Source: Sporosarcina sp. P33 (GTDB lineage Bacteria > Bacillota > Bacilli > Bacillales_A > Planococcaceae). From it: 64,000 nucleotides of DNA. The position numbers were made by a program, and so were the translations under genes. The notes beneath the pieces were generated by a model. The model saw nothing but the letters and a program-made list of their open reading frames with translations, ran no database searches and was not told the origin of the DNA. The stretch is taken from assembly GCF_002077155.1 (NCBI RefSeq), contig NZ_CP015027.1:928501-992500 (forward strand), given 5' to 3'. This document shows, one piece after another, positions 40,059 through 57,033 of this stretch (its first letter is position 1; each line of letters opens with the position of its first letter).

Positions 40059-40158
40059 GTTGTTCCTAAACGAACAATGCATAACCAATATAGTCTCGGG
40101 TTTAACAGAAGCATCTGCATTCTGACTTTAGAATATGACACCAGTTGATCGGAGTGGA

Positions 40159-40259
40159 AGGCGGCGACTCAGGGAGGATCAGCCTGACAGGTAAGACAAC
40201 CAAAGGAAGCGTTAGCGACCTGGGTGGCTTACCGCGGGCCCTCCTGAACGCGTCCGCCT
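40159..40259. repeat. GC-rich palindrome, copy 1
   Basis: AGGCGGCGACTCAGGGAGG pairs imperfectly with CCTCCTGAACGCGTCCGCCT, with an inner GGTAAG/CTTACC stem. A similar element recurs at 40,547 and, diverged and inverted, at 33,938. I recall comparable GC-rich interspersed palindromes in Bacillales genomes but cannot name a family. Confidence 0.8.
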
Positions 40260-40341
40260 GGAACGCAGTGAAACGTTGCATCTCCCTTTCCGCTTTAACT
40301 CACTTGAAAACGTAAGAATACGAAAGAAAGCAAGGGTGAAT

Positions 40342-40472
40342 GAGCGGATAACCAACCAGTATGAGCGCTTGCAAAGCCCAATTGAGCGCTGGACAAGAAG
40401 TTATGAGCGGTTACCAGTACACAAAGAGCGCTCGCAAAGTTACTATGATCGCTTATCCAGATTAATGAGCGG
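40342..40472. repeat. GAGCG array A1: seven boxes, 21-base spacing
   Basis: Boxes start at 40342, 40363, 40384, 40405, 40426, 40447 and 40467 (intervals 21,21,21,21,21,20). The sixth reads GATCG. Every interval is 20 or 21 bases, about two helical turns. Read in frame it would give seven-residue repeats such as ERLQSPI and ERWTRSY. Confidence 0.92.
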
Positions 40473-40546
40473 CTGGCCTGACTATTTTACAAATCACGGT
40501 ACAGCACTCATTACTCCAATAACCAGCACAAGTGAAACGGAGTGGA

Positions 40547-40647
40547 AGGCGGCGACTCAGGGAGGATCAGCCCGACAGGTAAGACAACCAAAAGAAGCGT
40601 CAGCGACCTGGGTGGCTTACCGCGGGCCCTCCTGAACGCGTCCGCCT
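40547..40647. repeat. GC-rich palindrome, copy 2
   Basis: Almost identical to the copy at 40,159, shifted by 388 bases. Confidence 0.8.
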
Positions 40648-40729
40648 GGAACGCAGTGAAACGATGCTTCCCCTTTTCCGCTTTAACTCACTTGAAAACG
40701 TAAGAATACGAAAGAACGCAAGGCCGATT

Positions 40730-40860
40730 GAGCGGATAACCAACCAGTATGAGCGCTTGCAAAGCCCAATTGAGCGCTGGACAAGAAGTTATGAGCGGTT
40801 ACCAGTACACAAAGAGCGCTCGCAAAGTTACTATGATCGCTTATCCAGATTAATGAGCGG
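40730..40860. repeat. GAGCG array A2: seven boxes
   Basis: Boxes at 40730, 40751, 40772, 40793, 40814, 40835 and 40855, a 388-base shifted copy of array A1. Confidence 0.92.
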
Positions 40861-41012
40861 CTGGCCTGACTATTTTACAAATCACGGTACAGCACTCATT
40901 ACTCCAATAACCAGCACAAGTGAAAAGCAGCGGAAGGCGGCGACTCAGGGAGGATCAGCCTGACCTGGTTCGCTCATCGCGTTCCCCCCAGCTACGGAAA
41001 ACCACAAAAAAA

Positions 41013-49721: not shown

Positions 49722-50526
49722 CGTAATTCTCTTGTACTTTCATTACATAACGCCGATACAGCAAGATCGCAAGCCCTATCACAACACCTGCGACGGATAC
49801 CATTTGCGCCGCACGCAGACTGCCGATGACATACAGGCTGTCTGTTCGCATGCCTTCAATGAAGAATCGTCCGATTGAATACCATATAACATAAAATAAA
49901 AAGACTTCCCCGCGCTTCATTTTCAGCACTCTGCGGATTACCAGTATGAGAATGAGTCCAACCACATTCCACAGTGACTCATAAAGAAATGTAGGATGAT
50001 AGGTTACGCCTTCAATCGTCATTTGATTCATAATCCAATCCGGAATGATGGTGTTTTCTTTAAATGCTTCCGAAACCGGTCCGCCATGTGCTTCCTGATT
50101 CATAAAATTGCCCCAGCGTCCGATAATTTGACCAATCAATAAACCGGGTGCTGTAATGTCCGCAACTTTCCAAAACGAGACGCCCCGCTTTTTACAGAAT
50201 ATCGCTGCAGTAATTACGGCCCCAATCAGCGCACCGTGTATCGCGATTCCGCCGTTCCAAATCTGAATGATCTGTCCGGGATGTTCCCGATAAAAATCCC
50301 AAGTGAAAATGACGTAATAAATCCTTGCACTGATGATGGAAATCGGAATGGCCCAAATGAGCATGTCCGTCAGAAAGTCCGGGTGCATCCCGCGCTTCAG
50401 CATTTCACGCTGAACCACCATAAAACCTAATATAATCCCAAGGGCAATCAGAATACCGTACCAGCGAATTTCTAAGCTGCCGATACTGACCGCGACAGGA
50501 TTGATTGCTAACATTGATACATTCAC
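49705..50526 (-). CDS. lgt: Prolipoprotein diacylglyceryl transferase
   Basis: A 273-residue membrane enzyme that adds diacylglycerol to lipobox cysteines, the first step in maturing lipoproteins such as MntA and EhuB here. Landmark RWGNFMNQEAHGGP near residue 141-154 plus HPTFLYES near 192 give the active-site signature. GTG at 50526 follows AAAAGGGGCG immediately after hprK; a second start is ATG(LAINP). Confidence 0.97.
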   Translation of the reverse strand: MNVSMLAINPVAVSIGSLEIRWYGILIALGIILGFMVVQREMLKRGMHPDFLTDMLIWAIPISIISARIYYVIFTWDFYREHPGQIIQIWNGGIAIHGALIGAVITAAIFCKKRGVSFWKVADITAPGLLIGQIIGRWGNFMNQEAHGGPVSEAFKENTIIPDWIMNQMTIEGVTYHPTFLYESLWNVVGLILILVIRRVLKMKRGEVFLFYVIWYSIGRFFIEGMRTDSLYVIGSLRAAQMVSVAGVVIGLAILLYRRYVMKVQENYDDKQK

Positions 50527-51477
50527 TTAGTCGCGCCCCTTTTCCATCAATAGTTCTGCATTGTCTGCGATCGCTTGATCCAAACGCTTGGTAAATTCCT
50601 CTGCCGCATTAAACCCAAGACGTTTCATTCGATAATCCATGGCAGCCACTTCGATGATGACCGCAATGTTCCGGCCCGGTCTGACCGGCACTGACAGACG
50701 TGTAATTTGCGAATCCAGTATTTCTACCTTTTCTTCATCGATGCCGAGACGGTCATAATGTTTTTTCTCGTCCCAGATTTCTAAATCGACCGCCAGCAAT
50801 ACCCGCTTATCGTCTTTCACCGCACTTGCTCCGAACAGCGTCATCAAATCAATAATGCCGACACCGCGAATTTCCAGCATATGTTTCAGCAGCTTCGGTG
50901 ACGTTCCAATCAGCACATTATCGGACACTTGTCGTATTTCAACTGAATCATCCGCTACCAGTCTATGCCCTTTTTTAATAAGTTCTAACGCCGTTTCACT
51001 TTTACCGACTCCGCTGCCGCCCGTAATCAGGACACCGACACCGTAGACATCCACCAGTACGCCATGGACTGTCGTCATCGGTGCGAGCTGACCGACCAGA
51101 TAGTTTGTCAGCATGCCGGAAAATTGTGTAGTCTTATAATCCGTACGCAAAACAGGAATGTTTTTCTCTTCCGCCAGCTGGCTTAATTCCTTCGGTCCTT
51201 CCTCACCATGCGCGATAATGAAGGCAGGTGTATCATGCGAACAAAGCCGTTCCAGCCGTTTTCTCCGCGTAATGGCCGGCAATGTTTCCAGGAAAGACAT
51301 TTCCTTGCGGCCGATCAACTGCACACGTTCTGCAGGGTAGTAATCAAAATAGCCGGCCATTTCAAGACCCGGCCGTGAAATATCGCTCATGTGGACTTGC
51401 CTGTGAATACCCTCATGCCCCGCAATCAATTCAAGACCAAAACGGTTCATAATATCTTCTACTGTTAATTCACCCAT
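50527..51477 (-). CDS. hprK: HPr kinase/phosphorylase
   Basis: A 316-residue bifunctional enzyme that phosphorylates or dephosphorylates Ser46 of HPr and Crh in response to glycolytic metabolites, setting CcpA control. The P-loop GGSGVGKS is at residues 153-160, and the capture loop HMLEIRGVGIIDLM near 200 is conserved. ATG at 51477 has GAGG six bases upstream; GTG at 51489 lacks spacing. Operon with lgt, yvoD, ppaX, yvoF. Confidence 0.98.
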   Translation of the reverse strand: MGELTVEDIMNRFGLELIAGHEGIHRQVHMSDISRPGLEMAGYFDYYPAERVQLIGRKEMSFLETLPAITRRKRLERLCSHDTPAFIIAHGEEGPKELSQLAEEKNIPVLRTDYKTTQFSGMLTNYLVGQLAPMTTVHGVLVDVYGVGVLITGGSGVGKSETALELIKKGHRLVADDSVEIRQVSDNVLIGTSPKLLKHMLEIRGVGIIDLMTLFGASAVKDDKRVLLAVDLEIWDEKKHYDRLGIDEEKVEILDSQITRLSVPVRPGRNIAVIIEVAAMDYRMKRLGFNAAEEFTKRLDQAIADNAELLMEKGRD

Positions 51478-51678
51478 GAAGTTCCTCACTTTCTACTGCA
51501 ATGTACATATTTTTTATATTTTATGCTAAAACAGGCTGCCTGCGTTGGCAGTCCGCATTCACCATCTATTTTACCATGAAGGAAACGAAAAGAAATGGAT
51601 TACTCTTTGGGCTGACCGCCTTTTTGTATCCTTCTTCGATTCCTTCTCTATATAAAGGATAAAGGAGAGTGGACAAAA

Positions 51679-52230
51679 TTGACACTAATCATTCTTGATG
51701 CAGGCCATGGCCCCGATACACCCGGCAAACGGACACCCGACGGAAAGATGCGGGAATTTCATTTCAATTCAGCAGTAGCTGCCCTCACAGGAGATTTTTT
51801 AACAAAGGAAGGTGTTACGGTTCGTTTTGCACATGAATCCTCCCGCGATGTGCCGCTAAGCGAACGGACTGCACTGGCCAACCGGCTGCAGGCCGATGCC
51901 TTCGTCTCGATCCACGCCAATGCTTTCGGCAGCGGCTGGAGCACAGCACAAGGAATTGAGACATTCATTTATCCGCAGGCAAGCACAAGTTCCGCCGCAC
52001 TGGCATCATCTGTGCAAAAAGCACTGATCTCCGCCTGCCGAAGACCGGACCGCGGCGTAAAGAAAGCCGACTTTGCTGTACTGCGAGATACGACTATGCC
52101 CGCTATTCTCGCTGAATGCGGCTTCATGTCTCACCAGACAGAAGCCGCCCTGCTGCAAAACAAAACCTATCAGCTGCAATGTGCGAGAGCGATTGCATTC
52201 GGAATTTTGTGCTGGGATTATGGCAGGTGA
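51679..52230 (+). CDS. N-acetylmuramoyl-L-alanine amidase (Amidase_3)
   Basis: A 183-residue zinc amidase that cleaves the lactyl-alanine bond of peptidoglycan. Zinc ligands are in DAGHGPDTPG near residue 7, E in REFHFN near 27, and SIHANAFG near 75; catalytic Glu in LAECGFMSH near 155. TTG follows AAAGGAGAGTGGACAAAA. No signal peptide; it could act inside the forespore or mother cell. The 21-base repeat array starts about 70 bases downstream. Confidence 0.93.
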   Translation: MTLIILDAGHGPDTPGKRTPDGKMREFHFNSAVAALTGDFLTKEGVTVRFAHESSRDVPLSERTALANRLQADAFVSIHANAFGSGWSTAQGIETFIYPQASTSSAALASSVQKALISACRRPDRGVKKADFAVLRDTTMPAILAECGFMSHQTEAALLQNKTYQLQCARAIAFGILCWDYGR

Positions 52231-52300
52231 AATAAAGTGAGTTTGGTAAGGAGGATCGGAGGTGTATTTGTGCATTGAGCTTCTGCTGCAGACGGGTAAT

Positions 52301-52866
52301 GAGCGGTTGCGTTGGATGTATGAGCGGTTATGTTGGGGTATAGAGCGCTTGATGCAATGGTATGAGCGCTTGACGAACGGGTATGAGCGGTTACGCAGCG
52401 GCTATGAGCGGGTAACACGGAGGTATGAGCGGTTGCCATGGAGTATAGAGCGCTCGCTGAAAGGGTATGAGCGCTTGACGAACGGGTATGAGCGGTTACA
52501 CAGCAGCTATGAGCGGGTAACACGGACGTATGAGCGGTTGCCATGCAGTATAGAGCGCTCGCCGCAAGGGTATGAGCGCTTGACGAAAGTTAAGAGCGGT
52601 TACGCAGCAGCTATGAGCGGGTAACGCGGAGGTATGAGCGGTTGCCCTGGAGTATAGAGCGCTCGCTGAAAGGCTATGAGCGCTTGACGAAAGGGTAAGA
52701 GCGGTTACGCAGCAGCTATGAGCGGGTAACACGGACGTATGAGCGATTGCCATGCAGTATAGAGCGCTCGCTGAAAGGGTATGAGCGCTTGACGAACGGG
52801 TAAGAGCGGTTACGCAGCAGCTATGAGCGGGTAACACGGAGGTATGAGCGGTTGGGCCTGTTTCCC
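52301..52866. repeat. GAGCG array B: 27 boxes, 21-base spacing, five-unit higher order
   Basis: GAGCG boxes begin at 52301 and recur 27 times to 52846. All 26 intervals are 21 bases except one of 20 (52574 to 52594). Every fifth box is TAGAGCGC, at 52343, 52448, 52553, 52657 and 52762, giving a 105-base higher-order unit. Units differ after the box but recur at fivefold period. In frame the codons give Glu-Arg heptads, but the 20-base interval and TAT-to-TAA changes (stop codons) break it. A related array lies at 40,342 and 40,730. Confidence 0.93.
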
Positions 52867-52944
52867 TCAAATGATTTTCTCAATCCAACAACAGCCATCG
52901 ATAACATTGATCAGCGCCCCCCCTTCACTGCCACCAAACAAACC

Positions 52945-52988
52945 AAAAAACACCTGTATCGCCGAAAATGGCGGTACAGGTGTTTTTT
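52945..52988. terminator. Bidirectional terminator between array B and yvlB
   Basis: AAAAAACACCTGTA-CGCC and GGCG-TACAGGTGTTTTTT make a long stem with a six-base loop, and both strands have poly-T. It ends yvlB and anything running rightward out of the repeats. Confidence 0.9.
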
Positions 52989-52994
52989 ATGATG

Positions 52995-54086
52995 TCATGA
53001 CATATCGACAGAGTTATAGCGGACTAGTACGGAGCCTGTTTTCGACTCGCCTGTAATATGCAGCGGCGGTTTCGTTTGATCTTCCGTGTTCTTGCTGAAG
53101 CGAATGGTGCGGTGCAGGAACTGCTCCTGTTCCTCTACGCGGGATACATCTTTCAGCTGCAGATCGAGCTTCCCCATATTGGATGTAATTTCACCTTTCA
53201 CGCTCAATGAAGAAGGGAAATATATTTCGACTGCGCCACTGATAGACTTAGCATCCAGGCTTCTTGCGTGTAATGAGGTAGTAGTAAGAGTGACATTGCC
53301 ATTTAATGATTTGGCATCTACTTCATTCACTTCTCCATCGACATACACGCGCCCGTTCAAGGTTTCAGCTTCCAGTTTGTCACCGGTCACTTTCAATAAA
53401 CGGACCATTCCGTTAGCGGTTTCGAGTTCTGCTTCTTCAAATGTTGTGTCAGCACATTCAATTTTTCCATTGGCTGTTTTAATGCGCAAATCCTTAAAAC
53501 CGACTCCTTCAGCCGAACAGCCGCCGTTCAATAAACGGACGGACAGTTTATCGTACATTTTCCCGGCCGGCACGTATAACTGAACATTTACCTGCAGCAT
53601 TTTCAAGTCACTGCCGATACGCAGTTTATTGCCGTCTTTAACAAACAATAACTTATCAAGGAAATGGCTGAGTGCCTCTGCTTCGGAATCATTATTGAAA
53701 TGCTTTACGGAGAACTTCGCCATGATTTCCTCATCTTCTGAAGGATGCAGTTCAACAGTTCCGTGATCGATATGAATGATCAGTTCTTCCACGTCTTCCG
53801 CAGATTTCTTTTCCGTATGTGTAAAGGAGACTGATTTGCTGAATGGTGCTTCGAAATCGAACTCTTTCACACGGTGTACGGCTGTATCCATGAATTGCAT
53901 GAAACGGTCGCCTGCTGTCATGAATTCTTTACGGATATCTTCAAAAAAGTCATCAGCTGAAGAACTTTCTTCAGGTTTTTCCTGATCTGGCTGTTTGCTC
54001 ATCGCTTCCAGCAGCCGTAATGCTTCATCCGCTGTAATTTTTCCTTCTTCGAGCAGCGTAAGTATTCGTGTGCGTTCATTTTGCAT
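52995..54086 (-). CDS. yvlB: DUF4097 family beta-helix-like protein (YvlB)
   Basis: A 363-residue protein. An N-terminal helical segment (LLEEGKITADEALRLLEAMS) leads to an acidic linker, then a DUF4097 region of repeated short strands (TANGKIECADTTFEEAELETANGMVRLLKVTG, LNGRVYVDGEVNEVDAKSLNGNVTLTT), a right-handed helix pattern. In Bacillus the neighbour is linked to envelope stress. M(QNERTRIL) at 54086 follows GAGGAGGAATCCGGAA. Confidence 0.85.
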   Translation of the reverse strand: MQNERTRILTLLEEGKITADEALRLLEAMSKQPDQEKPEESSSADDFFEDIRKEFMTAGDRFMQFMDTAVHRVKEFDFEAPFSKSVSFTHTEKKSAEDVEELIIHIDHGTVELHPSEDEEIMAKFSVKHFNNDSEAEALSHFLDKLLFVKDGNKLRIGSDLKMLQVNVQLYVPAGKMYDKLSVRLLNGGCSAEGVGFKDLRIKTANGKIECADTTFEEAELETANGMVRLLKVTGDKLEAETLNGRVYVDGEVNEVDAKSLNGNVTLTTTSLHARSLDAKSISGAVEIYFPSSLSVKGEITSNMGKLDLQLKDVSRVEEQEQFLHRTIRFSKNTEDQTKPPLHITGESKTGSVLVRYNSVDMS

Positions 54087-54159
54087 TTCCGGATTCCTCC
54101 TCGTTTTGAACAATCTTTTCAGTACCTGTCTATTTATACGGTTAAGCAGAAAGAAAGTT

Positions 54160-57033
54160 TCATTTTCTGCTTTTTCCCGCTTTTTCGATTTGTTCTTTCA
54201 TCCGGTGCCGGTCTCTCTCTAGTATCGTGCGTAAATACTTTCCTGTATAAGAGGCTGGTACTTCTGCCACTTCTTCCGGTGTGCCGACTGCGATGATTTC
54301 TCCGCCCTTATCTCCGCCTTCAGGTCCAATATCGATAATGTGATCAACCGTTTTAATTACATCCAAATTATGTTCGATGACGAGAACGGTATTTCCTCCA
54401 TCAACGAGGCGCTGAAGGACTTCGAGTAACTTGGCGATGTCATGAACATGCAGCCCTGTCGTCGGCTCATCCAGTATATAAAATGACTTGCCCGTCGATC
54501 GTTTATGCAGCTCGGAAGCAAGCTTGACCCGCTGTGCTTCTCCCCCCGACAGCGTAGTCGCAGGCTGGCCTAATTTTATATAGCCAAGACCCACATCGAC
54601 AATCGTTTGCAGTTTACGGCTGATTTTCGGGATATTCTCGAAAAACACTGCCGCTGTTTCAACTGTCATCTCCAGCACGTCCGCAATATTCTTTCCTTTA
54701 TATTGCACTTCAAGTGTTTCGCGGTTATAACGTTTGCCGTGACATACTTCGCACGGCACATAGACGTCAGGAAGGAAATGCATTTCGATTTTAATGATTC
54801 CATCCCCACGGCATGCTTCACAGCGGCCGCCTTTTACGTTAAAGCTGAAACGTCCTTTTTTATAGCCGCGGACTTTTGCTTCATTGGTCATCGCGAAGAC
54901 ATCGCGGATATCATCAAAGACGCCTGTATACGTGGCGGGATTTGACCGCGGAGTCCGGCCGATCGGTGACTGGTCAATATCGATTACTTTTTCCAGATGC
55001 TCAACCCCGCTGATGCTGTCGTATTTCCCGGGCTTCTGTTTAGAACGGTTCAGTTTCTGCGCCAATGTCCTATGCAGGATATCATTGACGAGTGTACTTT
55101 TACCCGAGCCCGAAACACCTGTCACAGCGATAAACTGCCCGAGCGGGAACTCCGCATCAATATGTTTCAGGTTGTTTTCTGAAGCGCCTTTGACTACTAT
55201 GCTACGCTCATCTCGCGGTCTGCGTTCAATTGGAAGCGGAATGAATTTCTTGCCGCTTAAATATTGTCCAGTCAATGATTTCTTATTCTTCATCACCTTG
55301 GCCGGTGTGCCTGCAGCAACTATTTCACCGCCCGCCACGCCTGCACCAGGGCCTACGTCAATTAAATAGTCAGCCGCCATCATCGTATCTTCATCATGTT
55401 CCACCACAATCAGTGTATTGCCGATATCGCGCATGTTTTGCAGGGTTCCGATCAGCCGGTCATTATCGCGCTGATGCAGTCCGATTGACGGTTCATCCAA
55501 AATATAAAGAACGCCTGTCAAACGAGAGCCGATTTGTGTGGCCAGACGGATACGCTGCGCTTCCCCGCCGGACAATGTGCCTGCAGAACGGGACAGGTTC
55601 AAATAGTCCAGTCCGACGTTCACCAGGAAGCCCAGCCGTTCCTGAATTTCTTTCAGAATCATGTCAGCAATTTGCGCGTCTTTCTCAGACAGCTTTAATT
55701 GGTCAAAGAACTTCGTCGTCTCGACAATTGAGCGTTCAGTTATTTTACCGATATGCTGTCCGTCAACCAGCACCGAAAGAGACTCAGGCTTCAAACGGTA
55801 TCCTGTACAGGAAGGACAGGCCCGCTCGGTCATATATTTGCTCATCTGCTCACGGATATAATCAGACGATGTTTCATGATAACGGCGCTCTACGTTGCGT
55901 AAAACTCCTTCAAAATAAATATCACTGTCACGTGTATTGCCGAATTCATTGGTGTAGCGGAACCGGATTTTCTCTTTGCTTGAACCTTTTAATAACTTCT
56001 CCAGATCCGAATCAGCGAGTTCACTGACCGGCACATCCATCGGAATTTTATAATGCTTCGCAACGGTCTTTAACAGTTCCGGATAATATTGAGAACTTGT
56101 CGGTTCCCATGGGGCGACTGCATGCTCCTTTAATGACAGGTCACTGTTCGGAATGACCAGGTCCGGATCGACTTCAAGTTTCATGCCGAGCCCGTCACAC
56201 TCTGGACATGCTCCGAACGGACTGTTGAATGAAAACATGCGGGGTTCCAGTTCCCCAATGGAGAATCCGCAGATCGGACATGCATGGTGCTCACTGAAAA
56301 ACAATTCCTCTTCCCCGATTACGTCCACCAGAACATTACCGTCAGCGAGCCGCAAAGCGGATTCAAGCGAGTCACTGAGCCGTGTCTCAACGCCTTCTTT
56401 CATGACGATCCGGTCAATGACAATTTCAATTGTGTGCTTCTTGTTTTTATCCAGGTCGATATTGTCGTCAAGGTCAATCGTTTCACCATTGACCCGCACA
56501 CGCACATACCCCTGTCTTTTAATATCTTCAAACAGCTTCGCATGCGTCCCTTTACGTTCGGAAATGATAGGCGCCAAAATTTGAATTCTCGTACGCTCCG
56601 GCAATTCCATCACACGGTCCACCATCTGCTGAATTGTCTGTGTGGAGATTTCTATGCCGTGATACGGACAATGCGGTTTCCCCACTCTTGCATACAGCAG
56701 GCGCAAGTAGTCATAAATCTCCGTCACCGTTCCTACTGTCGAACGCGGATTTTTACTGGTAGTTTTCTGGTCGATGGAAATCGCCGGAGACAGTCCTTCA
56801 ATGGAATCCACATCCGGCTTATCCATCTGTCCAAGGAACTGGCGGGCATATGCAGACAATGACTCTACGTAGCGGCGCTGTCCTTCCGCGTAGATCGTAT
56901 CAAAAGCCAATGAAGACTTCCCTGACCCCGATAAACCGGTGAGTACAACTAATTGGTCCCGGGGTATTTTGACGGTAATGTCTCTCAGGTTATTCGCTCT
57001 CGCTCCTTGTATAATCAATTCTTTATTTTTCAT
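54160..57033 (-). CDS. uvrA: Excinuclease ABC subunit A
   Basis: A 957-residue DNA-damage sensor of nucleotide excision repair. Two ABC ATPase modules: Walker [10 protein letters not shown] near 32-39 and GVSGSGKST near 643, signatures LSGGEAQR near 490 and 830. Zinc sites CPICG and CEACRGDG...CEVCHGKR are intact. Eight bases after uvrB. Probably LexA-controlled through the uvrB promoter. Confidence 0.98.

Follow-up and report, generated by a model that had tools for sequence, protein, structure and literature searches.

Intergenic GAGCG repeats phased at two helical turns form a chromosomal family in Sporosarcina sp. P33 and its relatives and are putative protein-binding sites

The 27 GAGCG boxes that follow an amidase gene in Sporosarcina sp. 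P33 are members of a chromosomal family of direct repeats that lie between genes and are helically phased. We tentatively propose, at a probability of about 0.45, that these arrays are putative targets of a DNA-binding protein or oligomer with sequence specificity. This reading is based on the phasing at 21 bp, the conservation of the core amid drifting spacers, the location between genes, the absence of constraint at the protein level and of an RNA fold, the occupation of one gene site in several species, and lineage-specific words. Since GAGCG is constant every 21 bp while the intervening letters drift, the arrays suggest a chromosomal protein-binding element.

The window, i.e. the whole stretch of DNA that was analysed, comprises 64 kb (positions 928501–992500) of the P33 genome, which is one contig of 3,235,441 bp. 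Its relevant features are:

52301–52850, plus strand: GAGCG array with 27 boxes, 21-bp period and 105-bp higher-order unit (box scan, Tandem Repeats Finder)
51679–52230, plus strand: N-acetylmuramoyl-L-alanine amidase gene (Amidase_3; PF01520, E 9.5e-47), upstream of the array
52995–54113, minus strand: convergent gene with DUF4097 and SHOCT-like domains (PF13349, PF22746)
52949–52988, no strand assigned: hairpin with flanking A- and T-runs, between the array and the DUF4097 gene (by eye)
40342–40430, plus strand: second place, five GAGCG boxes spaced 21 bp apart, first copy (box scan)
40730–40818, plus strand: the same five boxes, second copy of a 388-bp tandem duplication (box scan)

A first-pass annotation had described 27 boxes in which 25 of 26 steps measure 21 bp and the other 20 bp, and every fifth box as TAGAGCGC with a super-period of 105 bases. 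We confirmed both descriptions; its stated end of 52866 is 16 bases past the final box. In the TAGAGCGC boxes, GAGCG is found at 52343, 52448, 52553, 52657 and 52762, with steps of 105, 105, 104 and 105 bases, and Tandem Repeats Finder independently called a 105-bp unit with 5.2 copies and 90% matches. A GAGCG located 114 bases upstream, within the amidase gene, was also chained by our script and was excluded from the array. Pairs of GAGCG boxes at 21 bp were matched 33 times in the window, 25 times in the array and eight times in the second place, compared to 0.18 expected by chance and a maximum of two over 100 shuffles. The first box lies 70 bases after the amidase stop and the last one about 100 bases ahead of the hairpin, which judging by its sequence is likely a two-way intrinsic terminator. 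The region reads lgt, hprK, amidase, array, DUF4097 gene and uvrA in this order, with the amidase on the plus strand and the other genes on the minus strand. At window positions 40150–40964, the 388-bp tandem duplication (2.1 copies, 96% matches) couples five phased boxes to a GC-rich repeat, and a GC-rich repeat like it also adjoins the P33 arrays at 2607921, 2869850 and 2870208.

The array had been annotated as a single locus; it is real, but belongs to a set found across the genome and the family. Three-box GAGCG matches occurred 494 times in the P33 chromosome (96 forward, 398 reverse), and the reversed pattern, used as a control, had no three-box match in the whole chromosome. From 20 stretches and the window, which hold 371 of the 494 matches, we located 30 arrays with 5 to 47 boxes each, as counted by the script with some out-of-phase boxes included. 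The spacing of GAGCG pairs in these stretches was 21 bp in 484 cases, 20 bp in 38, 19 bp in three and 22 bp in a single case. By hand count, 16 of the 30 arrays contain a 20-bp step. The 441 distinct units yielded the consensus WWW-GAGCG-(C/G)-(T/A)T with T-poor spacers.

To assess how strictly the spacing is kept, we allowed 0–30 free bases between two TGAGCGA words in genome G018, and 27 of the 28 matches fell at 21 bp and one at 27 bp. When a triplet was required to match at its first and third box alone, the middle box was intact in 371 of 412 cases in P33, 80 of 88 in the group g14 (which includes G139 and G145), 51 of 51 in the group g18 (G018, G052 and G036) and, for the word GCGAG, 65 of 65 triplets in G127; these counts favour intact boxes, since the triplet stretches were picked by exact box matches. 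We then compared the amidase site between species. The amidase was searched in 61 genomes of the genus, all of which matched, many via other amidases, and the comparison covers the best 30 loci of the 61 genomes. A phased run is present at 12 of these 30 loci (L071–L078, with shorter runs at L089, L091, L094 and L096) and absent from 18. At five of the array-free loci (L079–L083), a hairpin similar to that between the window array and the DUF4097 gene follows the amidase stop at a distance of about 20 bases or less. The arrays L071–L078, from eight species, gave 374 local alignments of 60 bases or more and an identity no higher than 97%, with both directions counted. Mismatches affected 593 of 16558 core letters (3.6%), 5722 of 18703 letters at the six flank positions and 13768 of 30187 spacer letters (46%), a contrast between core and spacer that is inflated because local alignments register on the cores.

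It had been argued that selection acts on DNA or RNA spacing and not on a protein, based on frame breaks and open antisense frames. Both features are present: TAA stands ahead of three later boxes in the Glu-Arg frame of the window array, and two antisense ORFs (108 aa and 124 aa) overlap it. The part of the argument concerning DNA spacing stood, as no protein-level constraint was found, while the structured RNA that it also allowed did not. An encoded protein of coiled-coil heptads (Tyr/Ile-Glu-Arg-Leu-x-x-x) would agree with the 21 bp, equal to seven codons, and with the hydrophobic first and fourth positions of the P33 units, but we find it scarcely credible. Among unit pairs one letter apart, 36 of 110 changes were synonymous in the Glu-Arg frame (0.33, with 0.34 expected), so that the synonymous share gave no sign of purifying selection on this frame. 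Units bearing a stop in the Glu-Arg frame were below expectation in P33 (34 of 340, 44.5 expected), G110 with G128 (4 of 77, 6.2 expected), the amidase site (1 of 57, 7.6 expected) and g18 (8 of 69, 11.3 expected), and above it in g14 (8 of 49, 5.7 expected) and G127 (1 of 22, 0.6 expected). This depletion in four of six sets, whose units are related to one another, runs mildly against a non-coding reading. Because of the chance-level synonymous share, the stops, which occur in 10% of P33 units, and the frame shifts imposed by 38 steps of 20 bp, we rejected protein coding.

Structured RNA was rejected as well, since the 30 P33 arrays folded much like shuffled sequence and Rfam had no match within window positions 50000–56000. 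When up to 220 bases from the start of each array were folded and compared with 40 base shuffles, z values ranged from -3.2 to 1.6, with means of about -0.5 for the GAGCG strand and -0.3 for the CGCTC strand; single arrays were as low as -3.2 (2313524, on the GAGCG strand) and -2.8 (2607921, on the CGCTC strand). A Rho-utilisation site was also dropped, because the spacers of G033 and G127 are T/C-rich on the box strand, opposite to P33.

Phased arrays in related genomes, proposed as a check by the first-pass annotation, were found. Four-box GAGCG matches occurred in 36 of 151 genomes of the family sample and in 12 of 17 within the genus, P33 included, leaving 115 and 5 genomes, respectively, with no four-box match. 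G000, G002, G039, G110 and G128 are array-rich, whereas G021, G066, G076, G122 and G134 are array-free genomes of the genus. The reversed control pattern was not clean in the family sample, with matches in 13 of 151 genomes. Inspection of four of these 13 (G049, G127, G035 and G099), all lacking four-box matches to GAGCG, established that they carry 21-bp arrays of GCGAG. The word around the box is specific to the lineage. It reads TT(C/G)G(A/T)T-GAGCG-AA(T/A)TT in g18, where it is followed by about five random letters and gives a motif-like logo, TTTTA(T/C)-GAGCG-AATTT in G065, ACC(C/T)-GAGCG in g14 and CC-GCGAG-TATT in G127. A locus of G052 (L258) and one of G065 (L265) contain five boxes each with unrelated spacers, between flanking genes of the same arrangement (461/310 aa and 460/309 aa), from which we infer that they are probably orthologous sites. 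The 3.9-kb P33 stretch L062 is 84% identical to L153 of Sporosarcina sp. P2. Many g18 loci among L249–L268 share a common tail after the last box, near AATCnnnACTTTTGAACT, that resembles an end signature.

A scan of a genome collection resulted in at least 120 stretches containing 146 arrays; among the matches listed, 18 had no open frame. Those from named Bacillales, again among the matches listed, were L104 of Oceanobacillus, L144 of Ornithinibacillus, L169 of Virgibacillus, and L137 and L153 of Sporosarcina, and others came from unrelated taxa, e.g. Kutzneria, Williamsia and Bacteroidetes. Five boxes were also present in 52 viral stretches. The viral sequences inspected consist of 7-bp or similar simple repeats, or of near-identical repeats mostly inside open frames; those with no open frame were L318 and L320 (simple repeats) and L336 (near-identical 21-bp units), and drifting spacers like those of the bacterial arrays were found in none of the sequences inspected.

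The P33 arrays are intergenic. The codon-usage gene caller placed convergent genes around 11 of the 30; as the amidase gene fell under the caller's threshold, the window array was added by reading as a twelfth convergent case. Of the other placements, 13 are tandem against the box strand, four are tandem along it and none is divergent. The remaining array adjoins sequence that we take to be 5S and 23S rRNA genes. A 38-box array (L057, P33 1206934–1207735) adjoins the apparent 5S end of an rRNA operon. The gene on the 3′ side points its 3′ end at the array in 25 of 29 called cases. Assessed by ORF length only, the g18 arrays are convergent in 12 of 20 cases, tandem in five and two, and divergent in one. 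By eye, terminator-like hairpins adjoin many arrays. A hairpin finder scored 25 of 30 P33 arrays in the expected direction and 13 of 30 in the reverse direction on the 3′ side, and 15 of 30 versus 17 of 30 on the 5′ side, but the finder is lenient and the contrast weak.

In P33, dnaA lies at 1,855,661 and the terminus was taken as its antipode. GAGCG is on the lagging strand in 28 of the 30 arrays, comprising all 21 arrays with at least nine boxes and seven of the nine shorter ones. Array 185794, near the assumed terminus, has surroundings with a GC skew suggestive of the other arm and may be a third exception. Hand counts placed GAGCG on the lagging strand at 23 of 31 G110 loci with at least seven boxes, the other eight being opposite, and gave lagging-strand arrays in seven of eight cases in G127 (GCGAG) and 8 of 13 in G018. 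In G039, each of the 50 forward rows falls in the arm expected from the polarity; the reverse rows covered are 50 of 264. A strict replication polarity was rejected, given the eight contrary G110 loci; polarity is a trait of some genomes and not universal. Thus, the position relative to ori and ter, also proposed as a check, yielded a strand bias in P33 that is weaker or absent in relatives. About 75% of the called coding bases in the P33 stretches are on the leading strand (hand sum), and part of the array bias may therefore follow gene direction.

The placement and the strand bias bring two further explanations into play. A protein on the array could form a transcription boundary that stops read-through between convergent genes or after terminators, as would suit the convergent pairs at 12 P33 and 12 g18 arrays, the 3′ ends facing 25 P33 arrays and the hairpins seen by eye. 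We consider this improbable, as many arrays already have adjoining terminators, tandem sites are common (17 of 30 in P33), one g18 array is divergent and the hairpin contrast between sides and directions is weak. The strand bias among P33 arrays is also in line with a word that, like Chi or KOPS, would serve recombination or chromosome translocation, and the GAGCGG of roughly half of the P33 boxes contains AGCGG, the Chi word of B. subtilis. Chi, KOPS and SRS words are short and asymmetric, as GAGCG is, but they are not known to be phased or clustered; words of the Chi and KOPS type occur as scattered single copies, with a preference for the leading strand. In 293,832 bases of P33 outside the arrays, GAGCG is not enriched, with 258 occurrences on the leading strand (269 expected) and 179 on the lagging strand (166 expected), and for this reason such a word was rejected. 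Together with the g18 boxes, which mostly read GAGCGA and whose strand bias is unclear (8 of 13), this makes it very improbable.

We recognised no description of GAGCG arrays in the literature searched. The nearest described repeats found are the STAR elements of Staphylococcus, which are reported to be direct repeats interspersed between genes, with a conserved motif and spacers that vary and are specific to the locus (PMC3532100). In the same report, the 14-bp motif T(G/A/T)TGTTG(G/T)GGCCC(C/A) is separated by spacers of 40–44 bp and has a 5′ start signature, the repeat number depends on the locus (1–7 at the loci quoted), the function is unknown and one locus lies upstream of hprK (PMC3532100). 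Both families are intergenic, genome-dispersed direct repeats with variable repeat number and variable spacers. However, the P33 consensus does not fit the 14-bp motif, and STAR motifs are at least 40 bp apart, whereas GAGCG boxes, with a 5-bp core and a 21-bp period, recur every 20–21 bp up to dozens of times. The window array, like that STAR locus, has hprK nearby, lying between uvrA and hprK, a coincidence that may be due to chance.

Iterons of plasmid replication origins are direct repeats about 21 bp apart that are bound on one DNA face, and they share with the GAGCG arrays the phasing at two helical turns. The GAGCG arrays, in contrast, are chromosomal, occupy many loci per genome and are bound only putatively, and no replication initiator gene is among the genes beside the window array (amidase, DUF4097, hprK, lgt, uvrA). 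Direct-repeat centromeres of plasmid partition systems (parC type) likewise carry a protein array on phased direct repeats; the GAGCG arrays differ from them in having about 30 loci in one chromosome and, at the window array, no partition operon alongside. REP/RAYT elements, short intergenic repeats accompanied by a Y1 transposase, resemble the arrays in being short intergenic repeats in a genome with Y1 transposase matches. However, the GAGCG boxes are direct repeats with no marked fold, and transposase presence does not appear to track the arrays: Y1 matches occurred in 15 of 16 genomes, nine of nine array-rich and six of seven array-poor or array-free. The surroundings of five Y1 genes contained no long array; the phased boxes there amounted to one two-box pair in G018 and one in G052.

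If the arrays are binding sites, a putative protein would read a short GAGCG-centred motif every two turns from one helix face, in the manner of iteron-binding initiators or plasmid centromere-binding proteins. We further infer that it would bind cooperatively along the array and that bound arrays would mark or organise chromosome regions; a chromosome-organising or protein-loading role, as raised by the first-pass annotation, is possible. The arrays lengthen by local duplication, of the 105-bp unit and others, which accounts for the copy number but not for the 21-bp phase. A protein contact each 21 bp on one face would account for the phasing, the preserved core, the drift of the spacers and the lineage word changes, and sites near terminators would keep the putative complex clear of transcription. 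Several observations run against such binding: the distribution is patchy, with rapid expansion and loss that suit a dispensable repeat; the asymmetry between 20-bp and 22-bp steps is not predicted by a plain helical-phase rule; and the inflated core contrast and the stop depletion described above weigh on the same side.

A selfish or neutral satellite is an explanation that we take seriously and nevertheless doubt. A short element would seed sites just after terminators and grow by slippage or unequal exchange; its core and phase would reflect the needs of a copying or mobilising machinery, and the strand bias an orientation-dependent expansion. Higher-order units, variable copy number, dispersed copies of a related element of 6–7 boxes and about 130 bp, the 18 of 30 amidase-site loci lacking a phased run, and the lagging-strand position of all long and most short P33 arrays are in line with it. 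However, the short g18 arrays (4–5 boxes) keep 21 bp despite randomised spacers and show no apparent recent duplication, long G110 arrays are also found on the leading strand, and Y1 transposase matches do not appear to track the arrays. A satellite explains spread and copy number better than protein binding does, and the phase worse. Returning to the binding-site reading, one may conceive of a wider Bacillales element class, which we put forward with some doubt: a lineage word at two helical turns, a reader co-evolving with the shifting word (GAGCG to GCGAG, and flanks), and marks behind terminators whose direction relative to replication would be set in some species.

If a protein reads the arrays, they make visible where a DNA-binding system acts along the whole chromosome in Bacillus relatives, with natural word changes between genera and natural empty sites for testing. 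If they are selfish, they exemplify a helical phase and a five-base core that persist while the spacers drift, and selection on spacing is separable from selection on sequence. In L026 (P33 968842) and similar elements, the unit TGAGCGGATAAC resembles the core of the E. coli lac operator, which we presume to be a chance likeness.
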